Below are positions 34,338 through 44,283 of a stretch of 45,456 nucleotides of DNA, one piece after another. The position numbers and the translations under genes were made by a program. The notes beneath the pieces are model-generated. The model saw only the letters and a list, made by a program, of their open reading frames with translations. It made no database searches and was not told the origin of the DNA. Every line of letters begins with the position of its first letter. Position 1 is the stretch's first letter. Source of the stretch: a virus; the IMG/VR virus record IMGVR_UViG_3300044490_000374, positions 1 through 45,456 of that record, one strand, 5' to 3'.

Positions 34338-34454
34338 TTAATGGTTTGCCCAAATTGATAGGGCAAGCAAAATAATGGCTGCAAGCCAGAGACCCCAATG
34401 AGGTGGTTTATCGTGCAACCGTCGAAGCTGGCAGAAAGGACAGTCACAGTTCAT
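34338..34454 (-). CDS. 38-residue membrane protein with N-terminal cysteines
   Basis: This short frame encodes MNCDCPFCQLRRLHD, then a hydrophobic helix LWLAAIILLALSIW that would cross the membrane. A GGGGG stretch lies about eight bases before the ATG. The CxCxxC at the start with a following membrane anchor is distinctive, and could hold a metal or be a redox or lipid site. It sits directly downstream of the 49-residue acidic gene. Its small size makes the call moderate. Confidence 0.55.
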   Translation of the reverse strand: MNCDCPFCQLRRLHDKPPHWGLWLAAIILLALSIWANH

Positions 34455-34464
34455 AAGGAACCCC

Positions 34465-34614
34465 CTACCCGCACCAGGGGTTTTGGTTCACCGCCTCATA
34501 CCCAGGAGCCGGAGCGCCTAGGGCCGATAGGATTTCGTCAGCCTCTTCGGTCCACCAGTCACAGGAGGCGGTGCCGTCTTCCGTGAAGTCGATTTCAAGC
34601 TCGCTGGTTGGCAT
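34465..34614 (-). CDS. 49-residue acidic protein
   Basis: This small protein starts MPTSELEIDFTEDGTASC and ends NQNPWCG, with eleven or more acidic residues and several Trp. A GGGAGG site precedes the ATG, which lies inside the end of the DUF2997 gene (20-base overlap). It may be translated by coupling with that gene. No family is recognised. Its position makes it a possible accessory of the Ycf46/Ycf35 unit. Confidence 0.55.
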   Translation of the reverse strand: MPTSELEIDFTEDGTASCDWWTEEADEILSALGAPAPGYEAVNQNPWCG

Positions 34615-34780
34615 TAGTGCGCACCTCCCGAAAATATTCCGGCTTGTTTTTCCGGTTAGTGGTTATCCCCAGGGCCTTCTCGAAAGCGCCCATGGCCTCA
34701 TCGCAGCTTTTGCCCTGGAAGCCTTTTCCTTCCAGCTTGACCTCGCCGGTCACATCGATGTCGATGATGATCTCTTGCAT
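34595..34780 (-). CDS. DUF2997 protein
   Basis: This 61-residue protein starts MQEIIIDIDVTGEVKLEGKG and continues with FQGKSCDEAMGAFEKALG, the full signature of DUF2997, a family known mainly from cyanobacteria and other bacteria where it neighbours DUF1257 (Ycf35). The biochemical role is unknown. The ATG at 34780 follows an AGGAGG site that overlaps the end of the DUF1257 gene. Tight spacing with that gene suggests the two proteins work together. Confidence 0.85.
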   Translation of the reverse strand: MQEIIIDIDVTGEVKLEGKGFQGKSCDEAMGAFEKALGITTNRKNKPEYFREVRTNANQRA

Positions 34781-34782
34781 GA

Positions 34783-35202
34783 TTACCTCCTGCAAACCAG
34801 CCGGATTCGGCCGTCGTCTTGTTTCTGTTCACTCACCCGATAGCCCTTCTTCTTGGCTTCCGCCTTGGCCTTCTCGATGCCGTAAGCCTGCTTGAGCTTT
34901 CCCAGCCAAACCCCGTCGTACCGGGTGCCGCCAGATTTCCAGGTCTGGTCAAACTCAGAAATCCAGGCCCGGTAAGAGCCGTCTGCCTGATGCTCAAACC
35001 CGATGTCGTTAGAAGCAGTGCCCACATGCCGCTTCCGGATGATGATATGGGCCTGCTGCGCCCGCCGGTCCCCTTGGTAGCCGTAAAGAGCTTGGGGGGC
35101 CTGGTGGACTTCAACCTTGCCCTGAAACCCTAAACGGCCAAGGGCGGCTACCAGCGCCGCCCCATCCCGGAACTCGATTTGAACTTCGCTGTAATGACTC
35201 AT
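34783..35202 (-). CDS. Ycf35-like DUF1257 protein
   Basis: This 139-residue protein matches the DUF1257 (plastid Ycf35) family. It starts MSHYSEVQIEFRDGAALVAA, has LGFQGKVEVHQ, YGYQGDRRAQQAHIIIRK, NDIGFEHQADGSYRAWISE and the C-terminal DDGRIRLVCRR, all standard family segments. Ycf35 is conserved in red-algal plastids and cyanobacteria, but its function is not settled. The ATG overlaps the stop of the cysteine-cluster gene (ATGA). In this unit it follows a Ycf46-type ATPase and precedes DUF2997. Confidence 0.9.
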   Translation of the reverse strand: MSHYSEVQIEFRDGAALVAALGRLGFQGKVEVHQAPQALYGYQGDRRAQQAHIIIRKRHVGTASNDIGFEHQADGSYRAWISEFDQTWKSGGTRYDGVWLGKLKQAYGIEKAKAEAKKKGYRVSEQKQDDGRIRLVCRR

Positions 35203-35510
35203 ACTGTTGCCTCCTGTTTTTTCTTGAGAGCCTGTGCGAGCTCCCTCTTCATGGGCCCCGGTATAGAGGCAAAATCATAGATTATGCCGTCTTTGATGCA
35301 ACGGGCCCTAATACAGCAGCCCTCCCCGGCCCCTATGAGGTGGGGAAGGACGGTAGCCACGCGGCAGGTTGCCTTGTCCCCTTCAAACGATAGTTCTGGA
35401 CACCGGTCATATTTGCCCAAACCTTTTATCCATGACCGGATGCCAGGGCAGGTTTCGCTTAAGCAGCAATACCCGCAGCGGCAGCAGGGATTGGGAAATT
35501 CGGCACTCAT
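35199..35510 (-). CDS. Cysteine-cluster protein, probable metal or Fe-S binding
   Basis: This 103-residue protein starts MSAEFPNPCCRCGYCCLSET and holds ten or more cysteines: CCRCGYCC, then CPGI, RCPEL, TCRV and GEGCCIRARC. The spacing resembles short bacterial cysteine-cluster proteins thought to bind zinc or an Fe-S cluster. The ATG at 35510 overlaps the ATPase stop (ATGA), and its own stop overlaps the Ycf35-like start. The role is unknown. It takes the place that ferredoxin-like genes hold near Ycf35 genes in some bacteria, but this comparison is from memory and unverified. Confidence 0.8.
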   Translation of the reverse strand: MSAEFPNPCCRCGYCCLSETCPGIRSWIKGLGKYDRCPELSFEGDKATCRVATVLPHLIGAGEGCCIRARCIKDGIIYDFASIPGPMKRELAQALKKKQEATV

Positions 35511-36946
35511 AGCTGCACCCTCCTTGCCCCCCTGGCCTCTTCGGTCACCGTCCGGCTGGCCGGGATGGTCCGATACCTCGCCCACTCCCGCAAGGCATCC
35601 ATCTGGGCTTTCTGGGACCGGGATATGGGGATCACGAAATTGGCCGCGGCGTCCAGGTTTCCGCCGTTATAGGCGGCTTCGATGGCCACCTGCCGGATCT
35701 CTGCGCCGGAGTAGCCGGAAAGACAGGGGACCGTGATCTTGCCGTCGCTTTCTGCCATCATAATGGTGGAGGTTTTGCCCATAAACCGCTTCAGGTAAAT
35801 GTCCAGGATGTCCCATTCCTCTTTAGGTCTCGGGTTATCCACAAAAAAGATTGCATCCCAGCGCCCCATCCGGGTGTATTCCGGGGGCAACTTCGAATAG
35901 TCGTTGCATGTAGCAATTACAAAGACCTCTGAGGTATGATCGTTTAGCCAGGTCAAGAAGGTGCCGCCCACCCGCTGCGTCGTGCCGCCGTCCGTGGAGG
36001 ACCCGCCGACACCGGCCAGCCCTTTCTCGATCTCGTCCAGAAAAAGGATGCAGGGCGCCATGGCGTCCACCACCTTCAGGGCCTCCCGCATTTTGGCTTC
36101 ACTCTCGCCCACCAGGGAGCCAAAGACTTTCCCCAGATTCAGGGAGAGACAAGGCCAGCCCACCTGATTGCCCAGGGCCTTGGCAAAGTGGCTCTTGCCG
36201 GTCCCGGGAACCCCCAGAAGCAGGATACCCCGGAAGGGCAGCCCAGGCCGGCGGTGCTCGAATCGGTTAAGCGTCCAATCCTTAAGATTCTCCAGGCCGC
36301 CCAAGGTCTCAAAGGTTTCGGTGAACTGACTGAACTCCAGAGCCGCAGACTTCTCCACCATCTGCGCCTTCAAGGTGGTGATGGTCTTGGGGTCGAAGCA
36401 CTTGGTCCGCACCAGGGCCAGGGCCAGGGCGTTCTCTGCCTCCTCCCAGGTCAGCCCCTGGGCTGCGTCCAGAACCGTCTCCGAATCGTCCGGCTCGATG
36501 CCGGTGCTTTCCACCAGGCCCGCCAGGATGGTATAAATCTCTTCCCGAGTGGGCAGGGGAAAATCCAGGACCACTATCTCCCGCTCCAGCTCCGGGGGAA
36601 GGGAAGCGTCTGGGGCCAGGATTACCAGGGTAATGCCCTTGGCTTTGTAAATCGGCAGGCTATTTTGAAGTGCCTGAATGACAACCGGCTCCTTAATATG
36701 AAAATGATAGTTGCGGAGAAACCAGACCGCTTTTTCCTTCCCCCGGGCTGCCATGTTGGGGAGGTCGTAAGGGTCTGCCTCCTGCCAATCGGCCCCATTG
36801 CCCATCTCCCGGAAGCCCCGCACTAGGTCCCACTGGTAGGCGGAGCGGCCATTGATCTGGGGGAGTGTGGAGCTGATGAACCGCTCCTGCTCATGGGTCC
36901 GAATCAAAAGTGCCGGGTATCCGGCCTTGACGTAATCGGCGATCAT
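35507..36946 (-). CDS. Ycf46-type AAA ATPase
   Basis: This 479-residue protein has two parts. Residues 1-200 resemble the degenerate N-terminal AAA domain of Ycf46 (YPALLIRTHEQERFI, VILAPDASLPPELEREIVV, LDFPLPTREEIYTIL). Residues 215-450 are a standard AAA module: Walker A GVPGTGKSH, Walker B CILFLDEIEK, the sensor phrase VFVIATCNDYSKLP and the arginine finger segment TRMGRWDAIFFVD. Ycf46 is widespread in cyanobacteria and plastids, and its substrate is unclear; AAA proteins of this class remodel or unfold proteins. The ATG has the shared GGAGGCAAGACG leader. It heads the coupled unit with the cysteine-cluster, Ycf35 and DUF2997 genes. Confidence 0.9.
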   Translation of the reverse strand: MIADYVKAGYPALLIRTHEQERFISSTLPQINGRSAYQWDLVRGFREMGNGADWQEADPYDLPNMAARGKEKAVWFLRNYHFHIKEPVVIQALQNSLPIYKAKGITLVILAPDASLPPELEREIVVLDFPLPTREEIYTILAGLVESTGIEPDDSETVLDAAQGLTWEEAENALALALVRTKCFDPKTITTLKAQMVEKSAALEFSQFTETFETLGGLENLKDWTLNRFEHRRPGLPFRGILLLGVPGTGKSHFAKALGNQVGWPCLSLNLGKVFGSLVGESEAKMREALKVVDAMAPCILFLDEIEKGLAGVGGSSTDGGTTQRVGGTFLTWLNDHTSEVFVIATCNDYSKLPPEYTRMGRWDAIFFVDNPRPKEEWDILDIYLKRFMGKTSTIMMAESDGKITVPCLSGYSGAEIRQVAIEAAYNGGNLDAAANFVIPISRSQKAQMDALREWARYRTIPASRTVTEEARGARRVQL

Positions 36947-36969: not shown

Positions 36970-37320
36970 TTATATAAAGGAGAAATTCCGACGAAAAAAA
37001 GGGGTCCCGGTTGCCCAGGCCCCCAGAGAATTAGCCGATTGATGAATTAATCTGGTCGCCGGGTCAAACCAGCCGTGGCGCCGATAAATGGTAAACCGCC
37101 CATCGAACGGGCCGGCAAGGCCACAAAAATCATAATACCGCAGATTTTCATGGGGCACGGTCTCTCTGGCCATTCGGGGAAGGACATAATCGTATGACTT
37201 TTCTTGCGGGACCCCATAACCGATGATCCCCAGGCAGGATTGACACTCGTAAACCGAAGCAGCGATAACCCTAAATTTATCGCCGCTGCAGCCAGGACAT
37301 TGCAGTTTAGGTGCAGCCAT
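36970..37320 (-). CDS. Zinc-ribbon hypothetical protein
   Basis: This 116-residue protein starts MAAPKLQCPGCSGDKFRVI and has YECQSCLGII, forming a four-cysteine zinc ribbon in the first 30 residues. The remaining part has aromatic, polar phrases (ENLRYYDFCGLAGPFDGRF) without a known domain. The ATG has the shared leader GGAGGCAAGACG, and a 17-base inverted repeat lies just upstream. It is the first gene after the terminator at 37356-37382. Confidence 0.7.
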   Translation of the reverse strand: MAAPKLQCPGCSGDKFRVIAASVYECQSCLGIIGYGVPQEKSYDYVLPRMARETVPHENLRYYDFCGLAGPFDGRFTIYRRHGWFDPATRLIHQSANSLGAWATGTPFFRRNFSFI

Positions 37321-42103: not shown

Positions 42104-42860
42104 TCTCTGCCCCCTCGACTTTCATCAACAGCTCCAATCCTGCCCGAGCCAAATCCATCAGCTTGAGAAATGCGGCGGCGCTATTCTTGATCTGGCACTG
42201 TTTCTTGATCTTCACCACCAAGTCAAAAAAGGCCTCGTAGGTTTTTAGGTTTGCCAAGTAAACAGTATCAGCAGCAAAGGCGATGGCCGTTTCTTTCAAC
42301 AAGGCGTCCAGGTCTTGCAGCTCTTCCGGTAGGAACATGAAATTGACGATCTTGTAGCGGGTCCGGTAATCTTGCAGGCCCGAAAACTTGATTGATTCCA
42401 TGGCATTTAGGGTTTCAGAGTCAAGACCAGCATAAACCTTCTCCGCCATGCTCTGGATACTCTCCCATAATTCTTTTAAGAGGGACAGGTCGTCCTGACC
42501 GCTGATGGCGTTGTGCGAAAGCTGAATGCTTATTTGCTCGTCCTTATTTTTTTCTCCAGCCACAACCAGCACAAGGACTCTCTCAATACCTGCCTGCACT
42601 GCGGCCTTGATCCGATGGTTGCCTGACAAAACAATAAGCGGGCCTTCTTTTGTTTCACGGTAACAGAGAGGCATCGATGACAGCCCACCATCGCGTTTAA
42701 TGTTCGCAACAAGCGCGCCGTATTGTTCCGCTTTCATATACCGAGCGTTTTTTTCTAATAATTTTATACTATCTGGGGCTACGATTTCTATTTTACAAGG
42801 AAATTCCCCGGCGAGCTTTTCGTTCAGCCGATTTATTATTTCTGGTATTTCTTTATCCAT
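42096..42860 (-). CDS. ParB-domain protein, phage type
   Basis: This 254-residue protein has a ParB/sulfiredoxin-like N-terminal domain: APDSIKLLEKNARYMKAEQY, LVANIKRDGGLSSMPLCY and LIVLSGNHRIKAAVQAGI (the GNHR motif of the nucleotide-binding pocket). The C-terminal half is helical and differs from partition ParB. Such proteins are frequent next to phage terminase and DNA-modification genes. It overlaps the methyltransferase-like gene by 25 bases. The ATG at 42860 with GAGGTAA upstream is preferred to one six codons earlier. It is distinct from the ParB at 30374-31405. Confidence 0.8.
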   Translation of the reverse strand: MDKEIPEIINRLNEKLAGEFPCKIEIVAPDSIKLLEKNARYMKAEQYGALVANIKRDGGLSSMPLCYRETKEGPLIVLSGNHRIKAAVQAGIERVLVLVVAGEKNKDEQISIQLSHNAISGQDDLSLLKELWESIQSMAEKVYAGLDSETLNAMESIKFSGLQDYRTRYKIVNFMFLPEELQDLDALLKETAIAFAADTVYLANLKTYEAFFDLVVKIKKQCQIKNSAAAFLKLMDLARAGLELLMKVEGAENG

Positions 42861-44152
42861 GTTGATATTACCTCGCATAATTTGATAGTTCCTAATTGGC
42901 CCTTATATTTTAATCGTGGCGGGGATTGTTTCCTTTCAATCAACTCAAACAACGGTCTGTATTTCATCGAAACCGGCTTATCGGTAAATACAGAAGTCAA
43001 ACAGTAGTTAAATTCTTGCAGGTGTTTTTCTTCAAGATATCTCTTCATTTCGTCCGATTTAATTACCAACAGAAGCAGCTTCGCAAGACGGTTGTATTTG
43101 GTAGAGGGAACCACGAAATCGCACAAAAGATTTATTCTGCGCCAATCTTTTGCCCGATCAAAAATCCTATTGAATCCGACGAAGCCAATTATTTTACTAT
43201 CTACTAAAATAGCCAGCGCAGTTTCGGCTATAGAGGGGATGCCCACCGTTTTCCCTAAATATAAATCCCTATAATAATTCATCGTTACTGAATCGATGGG
43301 CGCTATGCTTATTTGGGCCGATTGATCGATTTCGTCCTCGTCTTTTAATAAATCAAAATATTTTTTGTTCGAACCTATCCGCCACCTTGTTATGGCCCTG
43401 CGAAATTCTAAATTCGAATAAATAAATATCGAGTGAAATTGAATTTTTTGAGCGATCATCACTGGATCACCCATATCTTGTCTCGGCGAGTCGGTAAACA
43501 ATACATATTCTTGTTGGGCCATATTGTGGATAGCCTCTTCTCTCCTTTCATTTGTAAGCATTTCGTATTTGGGAGACTCCCATCGAAAGGCTTTATGCAG
43601 ACGATTATATAATTTTTCATACCCGCCTTGATATGTTGGCAGAAACCCTAACAATATTGCATCTTTTAAAGGAGGGTCCTTGAACAAATCAAATACGTCT
43701 ATCGTGGTATATTCATGTATCCGAATCTTTTCCTTCCAGCCCAGGAGGAGGCTTTTGTTTTGATTAAAATATTCAATGAAATTATCTTTATAATGTTTCC
43801 ACATCCTTTTTCGGAATTCGGTATCTTGTTGATAATGCTTAATCAAAGAGCTGAACATCAAGATAATGGTGGCCTTATCGTCTATGGATTTCATGTGGTC
43901 TTTTAAGAAAAATAATTCCTCATCTATTGGTTCAAGCATCATGTCTCTTCCCAATAAACAATTTCCTAAGACGGATGAATAGAGGGCTATGTCGTTCGCC
44001 TGCAAATAATAGTCTTTCGAATAAGTCGAGATGATTTGCTCCGTGGTAAAATTTCCACAACAGCCATCGATGATCTTTCTTCCATTAAAAATATGGGCGT
44101 TGTTTCCAAAAAATTTTCTGACTGCGTGTGGGATAGCCCCGACGAAGCTCAT
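42836..44152 (-). CDS. Putative adenine methyltransferase with GNAT/Mom-like tail, antirestriction type
   Basis: This protein of about 438 residues starts MSFVGAIPHAVRKFFG. IIDGCCGNFTTEQII near residue 26 and LQANDIALYSSVLGNCLLG near residue 50 look like D12-type adenine methyltransferase motifs, and this family is named putative antirestriction adenine methyltransferase in annotations I remember. The C-terminal 130 residues (IIGFVGFNRIFDRAKDW, NLLCDFVVPSTKYNRLAKLL) read like a GNAT fold, as in Mom-type adenine modification. It would act on phage DNA to avoid restriction. The gene is much richer in A+T than its surroundings, which suggests recent transfer. The reaction is an inference. Confidence 0.65.
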   Translation of the reverse strand: MSFVGAIPHAVRKFFGNNAHIFNGRKIIDGCCGNFTTEQIISTYSKDYYLQANDIALYSSVLGNCLLGRDMMLEPIDEELFFLKDHMKSIDDKATIILMFSSLIKHYQQDTEFRKRMWKHYKDNFIEYFNQNKSLLLGWKEKIRIHEYTTIDVFDLFKDPPLKDAILLGFLPTYQGGYEKLYNRLHKAFRWESPKYEMLTNERREEAIHNMAQQEYVLFTDSPRQDMGDPVMIAQKIQFHSIFIYSNLEFRRAITRWRIGSNKKYFDLLKDEDEIDQSAQISIAPIDSVTMNYYRDLYLGKTVGIPSIAETALAILVDSKIIGFVGFNRIFDRAKDWRRINLLCDFVVPSTKYNRLAKLLLLVIKSDEMKRYLEEKHLQEFNYCLTSVFTDKPVSMKYRPLFELIERKQSPPRLKYKGQLGTIKLCEVISTWIKKYQK

Positions 44153-44215
44153 AAAAAATATCTCGCTATTAAATTTGAAGGCAATCAGGGGGGTCTTTTG
44201 CACCCCCCTAATCGC

Positions 44216-44283
44216 TGGAGCGGATCGGGGGAGTCGAACCCCCGGCATCAGGTGGTCCCCAATGCCCCCGCCTGGGTCTCCGC
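44216..44283 (-). tRNA. tRNA-like element (degenerate or partial)
   Basis: On the minus strand a perfect T arm (GGGGG TTCGACT CCCCC) is followed by GATCCGC, T and CCA. The 5' end GCGGA pairs with TCCGC for five of seven acceptor positions. The 68-base total is short and no normal D arm or seven-base anticodon loop forms; instead a CAGGCGG/CCACCTG stem is possible. It may be a decayed tRNA, a tRNA-like RNA or a former integration site. Confidence 0.35.

Follow-up and report, generated by a model that had tools for sequence, protein, structure and literature searches.

A phage operon joining a p97-like tandem AAA ATPase to DUF1257 and DUF2997, possibly the viral form of a widespread protein-remodelling machine

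The genes ycf35 and ycf46 are long-standing orphans of plastids and cyanobacteria. Relatives of both are found side by side in the 45,456-base virus record IMGVR_UViG_3300044490_000374 (the window, by which we mean the whole stretch analysed), which belongs to a tailed phage with recognisable portal, Mu-like protease, capsid, tail, sliding clamp, ParB and exonuclease genes. A AAA ATPase, presumably of the Ycf46 type, a cysteine-cluster protein, a DUF1257 (Ycf35) protein and a DUF2997 protein are encoded there in succession (Table 1), and the question is whether they make up one functional unit and what that unit would do. A preliminary description of this DNA had proposed that the four genes are strictly coupled. 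We find them so: ATGA overlaps join the AAA stop to the start of the cysteine protein and the stop of the latter to the start of DUF1257, while DUF2997 starts 2 bases past the DUF1257 stop, with AGGAGG within the DUF1257 end. A gene for a 49-residue protein overlaps DUF2997 by 20 bases, and a DUF3150 gene, which accompanies the set in relatives, lies downstream; the minus strand carries all of them. Overlapping genes by themselves are ordinary in phages, and we argue for a non-chance link because the association recurs, in the counts for Cyanobacteriota and in synteny, not because of the overlaps. Our reading, which we hold to be an even call, is that a protein-remodelling machine of wide distribution is encoded here in a phage form, and that DUF1257 and DUF2997 are its helpers.

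Viral relatives were collected in two scans, the first with the AAA protein as query and the second with an AAA alignment. The second scan gave 20 contigs, three of which (L012, L042 and L046) stop at the AAA gene or inside it and were left out. In the remaining 17, DUF2997 is always present and DUF1257 is present in 16; DUF3150 accompanies them in 14, and the 49-residue protein, referred to here as the -CG protein after its C-terminus, in 15. Sixteen carry X75, a protein of roughly 70-83 residues whose gene separates AAA from DUF1257 in most relatives, and the cysteine protein occurs in two. Selection by DUF1257 adds phage records of 103-173 kb (L025, L026, L029, L030 and L034) that hold AAA, DUF3150, DUF1257 and DUF2997, in gene orders that are partly different. 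Once repeat loci were merged (L020-L024, L027, L035, L037 and L039-L046 against L002-L019), 30 distinct viral contigs were left.

The core is also carried by cultured phages. A tblastn search with the AAA protein matched 95 of 50,697 phage records, and the annotation of Rhizobium phage RHph_I4 (MN988552) already lists AAA, a hypothetical gene, DUF1257 and DUF2997. Profile searches gave the same AAA-DUF1257-DUF2997 order in Rhizobium phage L338C, Aeromonas phage HJ05, Pseudomonas phage SM1 and Rhodobacter phage RcDurkin; in Agrobacterium phage JP1 the DUF1257 match is weak (E 0.016). The order in the RHph_I4-like phages, with one gene between AAA and DUF1257 (two in SM1), is that of the window, but the intervening gene encodes about 200-240 residues and fits neither the X75 nor the cysteine-protein profile, and DUF3150, present in the window, was not detected in the stretches fetched. 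The window's own DUF1257 and DUF3150 proteins matched nothing in the 50,697 phage records; the DUF1257 protein of RHph_I4 matched 21 of them.

Cellular genomes hold the same association. A genome collection scanned with DUF1257 yielded 48 loci, each taken with up to 7 kb on either side: AAA is found in 31, DUF2997 in 38, one or both in 43, DUF3150 in 16 and the cysteine protein in two. Fourteen loci are phage-like, carry the -CG protein and lie in metagenome-assembled genomes (MAGs) of Deltaproteobacteria, Syntrophales or Syntrophobacterales. Five fetched stretches contain neither AAA nor DUF2997 (L076, L078, L081, L085 and L094), and for L081, L085 and L094 both genes stand elsewhere on the DUF1257-bearing contig. 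Among 17 genomes of the Myxococcales/Phycisphaerae type and of Actinomycetota, AAA was detected in 16 (no candidate passed in G012); read by eye, in 12 of the 17 AAA and DUF1257 are no more than about 8 kb apart on the same strand of one contig, and in four they lie on different contigs. In one locus (L128, genome G233) a radical-SAM gene, AAA, a very divergent DUF1257 (E 0.0012) and DUF2997 stand in a row, and genomes that seem to have no DUF1257 may hold a divergent copy of this sort.

The association was then counted in 79 genomes drawn from the Cyanobacteriota, with AAA accepted at E up to 1e-60. DUF1257 is encoded in 40 of these genomes, DUF2997 in 47 and AAA in 52; all three occur in 39 and none in 27, and AAA is missing from none of the genomes that encode DUF1257 or DUF2997 (Fisher's test, 3e-17, for genomes that are not independent). 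Within 3 kb and on the same strand, 74 of the 85 DUF1257 matches have AAA or DUF2997 as a neighbour, and 11 have neither. The equation of Ycf35 with DUF1257, and a cyanobacterial cluster of DUF2997, ycf35 and fed7 whose Fed7 product is a [4Fe-4S] ferredoxin, are given in PMC4284462. The single such sampled cyanobacterial locus examined had a ferredoxin gene with DUF2997-DUF1257. The three families of cyanobacteria and plastids are those of the window. The ferredoxin is absent from the phage set, which has in addition DUF3150, the -CG protein and either X75 or the cysteine protein.

These counts bear on the plainest account of the locus, co-transcription of unrelated early genes. Packed, overlapping genes are typical of phage early operons, and the cysteine protein, a 38-residue frame and an upstream 116-residue frame are not conserved; yet the same three or four families recur across different orders, phyla and replicons. 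For AAA, DUF1257 and DUF2997 co-transcription is refuted, it may hold for the 38-residue gene, and for the locus as a whole we judge it improbable. The neighbourhood survey called for in the preliminary description thus finds the association repeated across phages and bacteria, and the conserved unit proposed there stands for AAA, DUF1257 and DUF2997 but not for the cysteine protein, which the synteny counts above remove as a fixed part. Two tiny genes had been suggested as possible members: the 49-residue -CG protein does belong, and the 38-residue gene, for which blastp found no relative in loci L002-L019, is by that comparison probably outside the conserved unit. DUF3150 and X75, and in relatives radical-SAM, Hsp70 and GrpE proteins, are parts that the preliminary description had not named.

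The PHROG match of the ATPase extends across nearly the full length. The first domain has no P-loop, as read directly from the sequence, and the second carries Walker A (GVPGTGKS), Walker B (LFLDE) and, in alignments, ATCN as sensor 1. The AlphaFold2 model (mean predicted local distance difference test score, pLDDT, 85.2) superposes on a p97 chain with Z 24.0 and a root-mean-square deviation of 5.3 over 434 aligned residues (model residues 1-460). As modelled, the protein has two AAA domains in tandem, in the manner of p97 D1-D2, and the first of them is dead. It has this fold in common with p97/Cdc48, Drg1, Rix7 and NVL (Z about 24 to p97) and differs from them in having no N domain, a dead D1 equivalent, and the operon partners of a bacterial or phage gene. 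The suggestion of an ATP-driven factor acting on a protein fits this fold.

The ancestry of the ATPase speaks to another account, an auxiliary photosynthesis or iron gene set acquired from a cyanobacterial host. Both ycf35 and ycf46 are plastid genes, and PMC5940233 reports that ycf34, ycf35, ycf46 and pbsA were lost together in freshwater red algae; Prochlorococcus phage P-SSM2 carries DUF2997-DUF1257. The window AAA is, however, 37-38% identical to actinobacterial and planctomycete copies and 32-33% identical, in a whole-length alignment, to copies from cyanobacterial genomes (which often adjoin DUF1257), and a tree of 29 AAA sequences sets the cyanobacterial copies apart. Among bacteria, the whole set has its nearest counterparts in MAGs of Deltaproteobacteria and Syntrophales, and no photosynthesis family appears among the 25 of 41 families listed for the 64 window proteins. 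We consider a cyanobacterial photosynthesis or iron set very improbable. In P-SSM2 the two genes (L132, 147491-148070) are annotated as hypothetical and lie upstream of the gp43 DNA polymerase. In the same tree the viral copies need three label changes, at least two of them forced by well-supported branches. A Heimdallarchaeota MAG chromosome (CP070695.1; L048/L129) has AAA-DUF3150-DUF1257, and its AAA groups inside a viral lineage, which suggests a provirus or a misbinned phage.

A chelatase-type chaperone set of the MoxR/vWA (CobS-CobT-like) kind, with DUF3150 as the partner, would be a further way to read the ATPase. DUF3150 is said to adjoin MoxR/CobT genes in phages. The window AAA nevertheless tests as classical Cdc48 type and not as MoxR, and no vWA domain (PF13519) was found in the window, a record that may be incomplete; we regard this set as a very slim prospect. 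According to PMC7159879, FtsH-containing MoxR-vWA ternary systems share with the window a tandem AAA with an inactive first domain and variable partners, including in some a radical-SAM protein such as the window's relatives have, but they need MoxR and vWA, and the window is without vWA.

The small proteins are assigned with differing certainty. The preliminary family names hold for AAA, DUF1257 and DUF2997: the window DUF1257 scores 53.1 bits against a PF06868 cut-off of 22.2 (residues 30-136) and the window DUF2997 48.1 bits against a PF11211 cut-off of 24.1 (residues 4-50). The cysteine protein has no convincing family in Pfam, PHROG or NCBIfam; a presumed likeness to YkgJ/CxxCxxCC proteins found no support in Pfam, where three members gave no such family at E up to 1 or 0.5. 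This protein keeps its window position in L069 and L011/L066 and takes another in L047; in L011 it stands side by side with X75, and in L069, a bacterial MAG contig, it occurs alone in the window arrangement. DUF3150 scores 54.7 bits against a PF11348 cut-off of 24.9 (1.2e-14 for the longer open frame, 6.6e-15 in a repeat scan). In DUF2997 one cysteine and one glycine are each kept in 85/85 distinct rows and GxxGxxC in 80/85, and 27 of 28 distinct C-termini of the -CG protein end in CG, the exception (L003) resembling a frame break; both sets of figures are upper estimates, as the same profiles selected the rows and favour conserved ones. The -CG protein was considered as a possible paralogue of DUF2997, and a profile comparison of the two aligned just 14 columns (probability 72). 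A glycyl-radical tail on DUF2997 was considered and dropped, the C-termini being too variable outside the -CG protein.

The neighbours of the relatives point to a possible chemistry. An NrdG-like radical-SAM protein with the motifs GCxxxCxxC and NGPGxR is encoded in 18 of the 48 genome loci and in five of the 30 distinct viral contigs, namely two phages with the whole set (L030 and L034) and three viral-labelled contigs of the Phycisphaerae type (L031-L033). Fer4_12 (PF13353) was above its cut-off in 4/4 proteins scanned, and the scores of 88.0-117 bits in 5/5 scanned are below the NrdG equivalog cut-off (TIGR02491, 126.1 bits). A plain NrdG was rejected for the phage sets, as no NrdD was found in the nine virus records searched, both gene carriers included. 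The records L017 and L036 have partial Fer4_12 matches far from the set, which we did not count as a partner. Chaperones appear as well: two Planctomycetota/Obscuribacterales operons add a HEAT/WD40-like protein, a GrpE relative (3.8e-08 and 1.4e-06) and Hsp70 (6.1e-36 in L057), and the annotation of Pseudanabaena plasmid pPg_01, which is independent of our profiles, gives GrpE, Hsp70, DUF1257, an ATP-binding protein, a hypothetical protein, DUF2997 and AAA in order. The plasmid operon, at NZ_CP112875.1 (129817-135761; L134), reads GrpE, Hsp70, DUF1257, an SMC-like ATPase, an unknown protein, DUF2997 and AAA.

From these neighbours a bolder proposal can be made, which we think rather doubtful. 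AAA, DUF1257, DUF2997 and the NrdG-like radical-SAM protein would be the core of an undescribed remodelling system coupled to radical or Fe-S chemistry, present in phages, in bacteria and, without the radical-SAM protein, in plastids. The invariant cysteine of DUF2997, or else its tail, would be where the radical-SAM protein or ferredoxin acts, and the p97-like ring, joined in some bacteria by Hsp70 and GrpE, would handle the product. Phages such as that of the window would carry a reduced copy, which either cooperates with the set of the host or hijacks it, with the -Cys-Gly protein as their own carrier.

Other neighbours could fit a role in conflict between phage and host or between phages. 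In Myxococcales and Phycisphaerae a helicase and two unnamed proteins are followed by DUF2997, DUF1257 and the radical-SAM gene. The three-gene run is found in L073, L075, L077, L082-L084, L086, L088, L090, L091 and L093, mostly behind an SF1 helicase, and we regard the helicase-DUF2997-DUF1257-radical-SAM set as a candidate defence or repair operon. The window operon could be a module for counter-defence or superinfection exclusion, in which the AAA ring disarms or triggers a factor of the host or of a rival phage, as in chaperone-centred conflict systems. The L091 helicase is MkoA-like by PADLOC (1.1e-74), with AAA about 7 kb upstream in several genomes; the window AAA partially matches the defence ATPase IetA (6.4e-18); and partners vary by lineage, as they do in the conflict systems described in PMC7159879. 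The IetA and TRIP13 matches are, however, confined to the generic AAA domain, and against the IetA equivalog NF042959 of NCBIfam (printed as 'IteA_antiphage') the window AAA reaches 54.3 bits, with the cut-off at 510. IetA reportedly acts together with a serine protease (IetAS), and no S8 peptidase (PF00082) was found in the window, again with the proviso that the record may be incomplete. The presence of AAA in 52 of 79 Cyanobacteriota genomes and in plastids points instead to housekeeping. We consider a conflict module unlikely.

We return to the protein-remodelling machine. The second AAA domain would burn ATP while the first is dead, going by sequence and model, and, as its family suggests, the protein very likely forms a ring of six subunits and pulls on its client or reshapes it. 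DUF1257 and DUF2997, by their conserved linkage, would be dedicated small partners of the ATPase, either adaptors or handled clients. More tentatively, the ring may help to load, modify or reactivate a partner that depends on a cysteine or on Fe-S, because the DUF2997 cysteine is invariant and a radical-SAM or [4Fe-4S] ferredoxin gene lies beside the relatives' copies; we grade this step lower because it draws on neighbours absent from the window. The metal cofactor of the preliminary description has no more than indirect support, from these neighbours, and the window has none of them. DUF3150, the -CG protein and either X75 or the cysteine protein might, speculatively, be phage additions in a lineage without the radical-SAM gene; if so, their role would probably be to steer the ring, early in infection, towards a target of phage or host origin.

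Several observations weigh against this reading. Conserved linkage is no proof of a complex of AAA, DUF1257 and DUF2997. In the stretches read, Mycobacterium phage Catdawg and satellite phage Javan368 have a AAA relative without DUF1257 or DUF2997, and the P-SSM2 pair has no adjoining AAA. Four of the 79 Cyanobacteriota genomes have AAA and neither DUF; only six of the 85 DUF1257 matches there are near both AAA and DUF2997, the DUF1257-DUF2997 and DUF1257-AAA pairs being mostly two separate loci, and the p-values are a guide at most because the genomes are related. In Actinomycetota DUF1257 is rare (1 of 149 genomes, which is the centre genome itself). The DUF1257 family alignment has no conserved cysteine or histidine. 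Its AlphaFold2 model is confident (mean pLDDT 92.3) but finds no convincing counterpart among solved folds: at E <=0.001 Foldseek returned nothing, the best VIA-align Z was 5.7, weak Bcs1 rows among the fold matches were not used, and sequence searches of the PDB returned chance-like rows only. Because no structural match was convincing, we give DUF1257 no fold name. Finally, the window and all 17 AAA-selected viral contigs are without a radical-SAM gene, so the Fe-S part may not apply to these phages.

The window is not a new kind of locus, because every family in it is known and the RHph_I4 annotation already shows the core order. In the literature searched, with subscription papers and most bioRxiv preprints outside its scope, we found no description of AAA, DUF1257 and DUF2997 combined with a radical-SAM or Hsp70 association, no paper with DUF1257, 'radical SAM' and 'AAA ATPase' together, and nothing on the unit in searches on Ycf46 and on an Hsp70/WD40 operon. 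Papers naming DUF1257, DUF2997 or ycf35 are, by title, mostly plastid genome reports, and PMC7159879 is not among them. Our survey links Ycf35 and a Ycf46-like AAA both with DUF2997 and with a partner of the radical-SAM or ferredoxin type, and some bacteria have Hsp70 and GrpE in the set as well. The survey offers a testable lead on two plastid orphans, taking them from 'function unknown' to a short test list, and cultured phages of easily grown hosts (Rhizobium and Rhodobacter) carry the core set.

Table 1. Features of the operon and adjoining frames in the window
Feature	Coordinates	Strand	Basis
Tandem AAA ATPase (Cdc48/Ycf46-like), 479 residues	35507..36946	-	PF00004 6.5e-27; PHROG_8638 2.7e-98
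Cysteine-cluster protein, 103 residues, optional part	35199..35510	-	sequence CCRCGYCC...; synteny
DUF1257 (Ycf35), 139 residues	34783..35202	-	PF06868 4e-14
DUF2997, 61 residues, with invariant family cysteine	34595..34780	-	PF11211 1e-12
Small conserved protein, 49 residues, C-terminus -WCG	34465..34614	-	relatives' C-termini
DUF3150 protein, 311 residues	33311..34246	-	PF11348; start picked by comparing relatives
38-residue open frame, CxCxxC and hydrophobic stretch	34338..34454	-	
Upstream 116-residue open frame, two CxxC pairs, zinc-ribbon-like (below cut-off)	36970..37320	-	

The upstream frame has no relatives in loci L002-L019. Early expression is suggested for the sets of the window and of RHph_I4, because the former lies near replication genes and the latter upstream of a DnaB-like helicase. 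In one relative (L016:6913-7787; IMG/VR 3300031463_000035) an intron with an HNH gene sits at the Walker B codons and splits the AAA gene; it is a group I intron, with an Rfam RF00028 score of 49.2 bits (E 3e-11) that is just under the gathering score of 50. Elsewhere in the window (42836-44248, minus strand), a phage DAM-like methylase domain (PF22555) is fused to a phage GNAT-like domain (PF22559).

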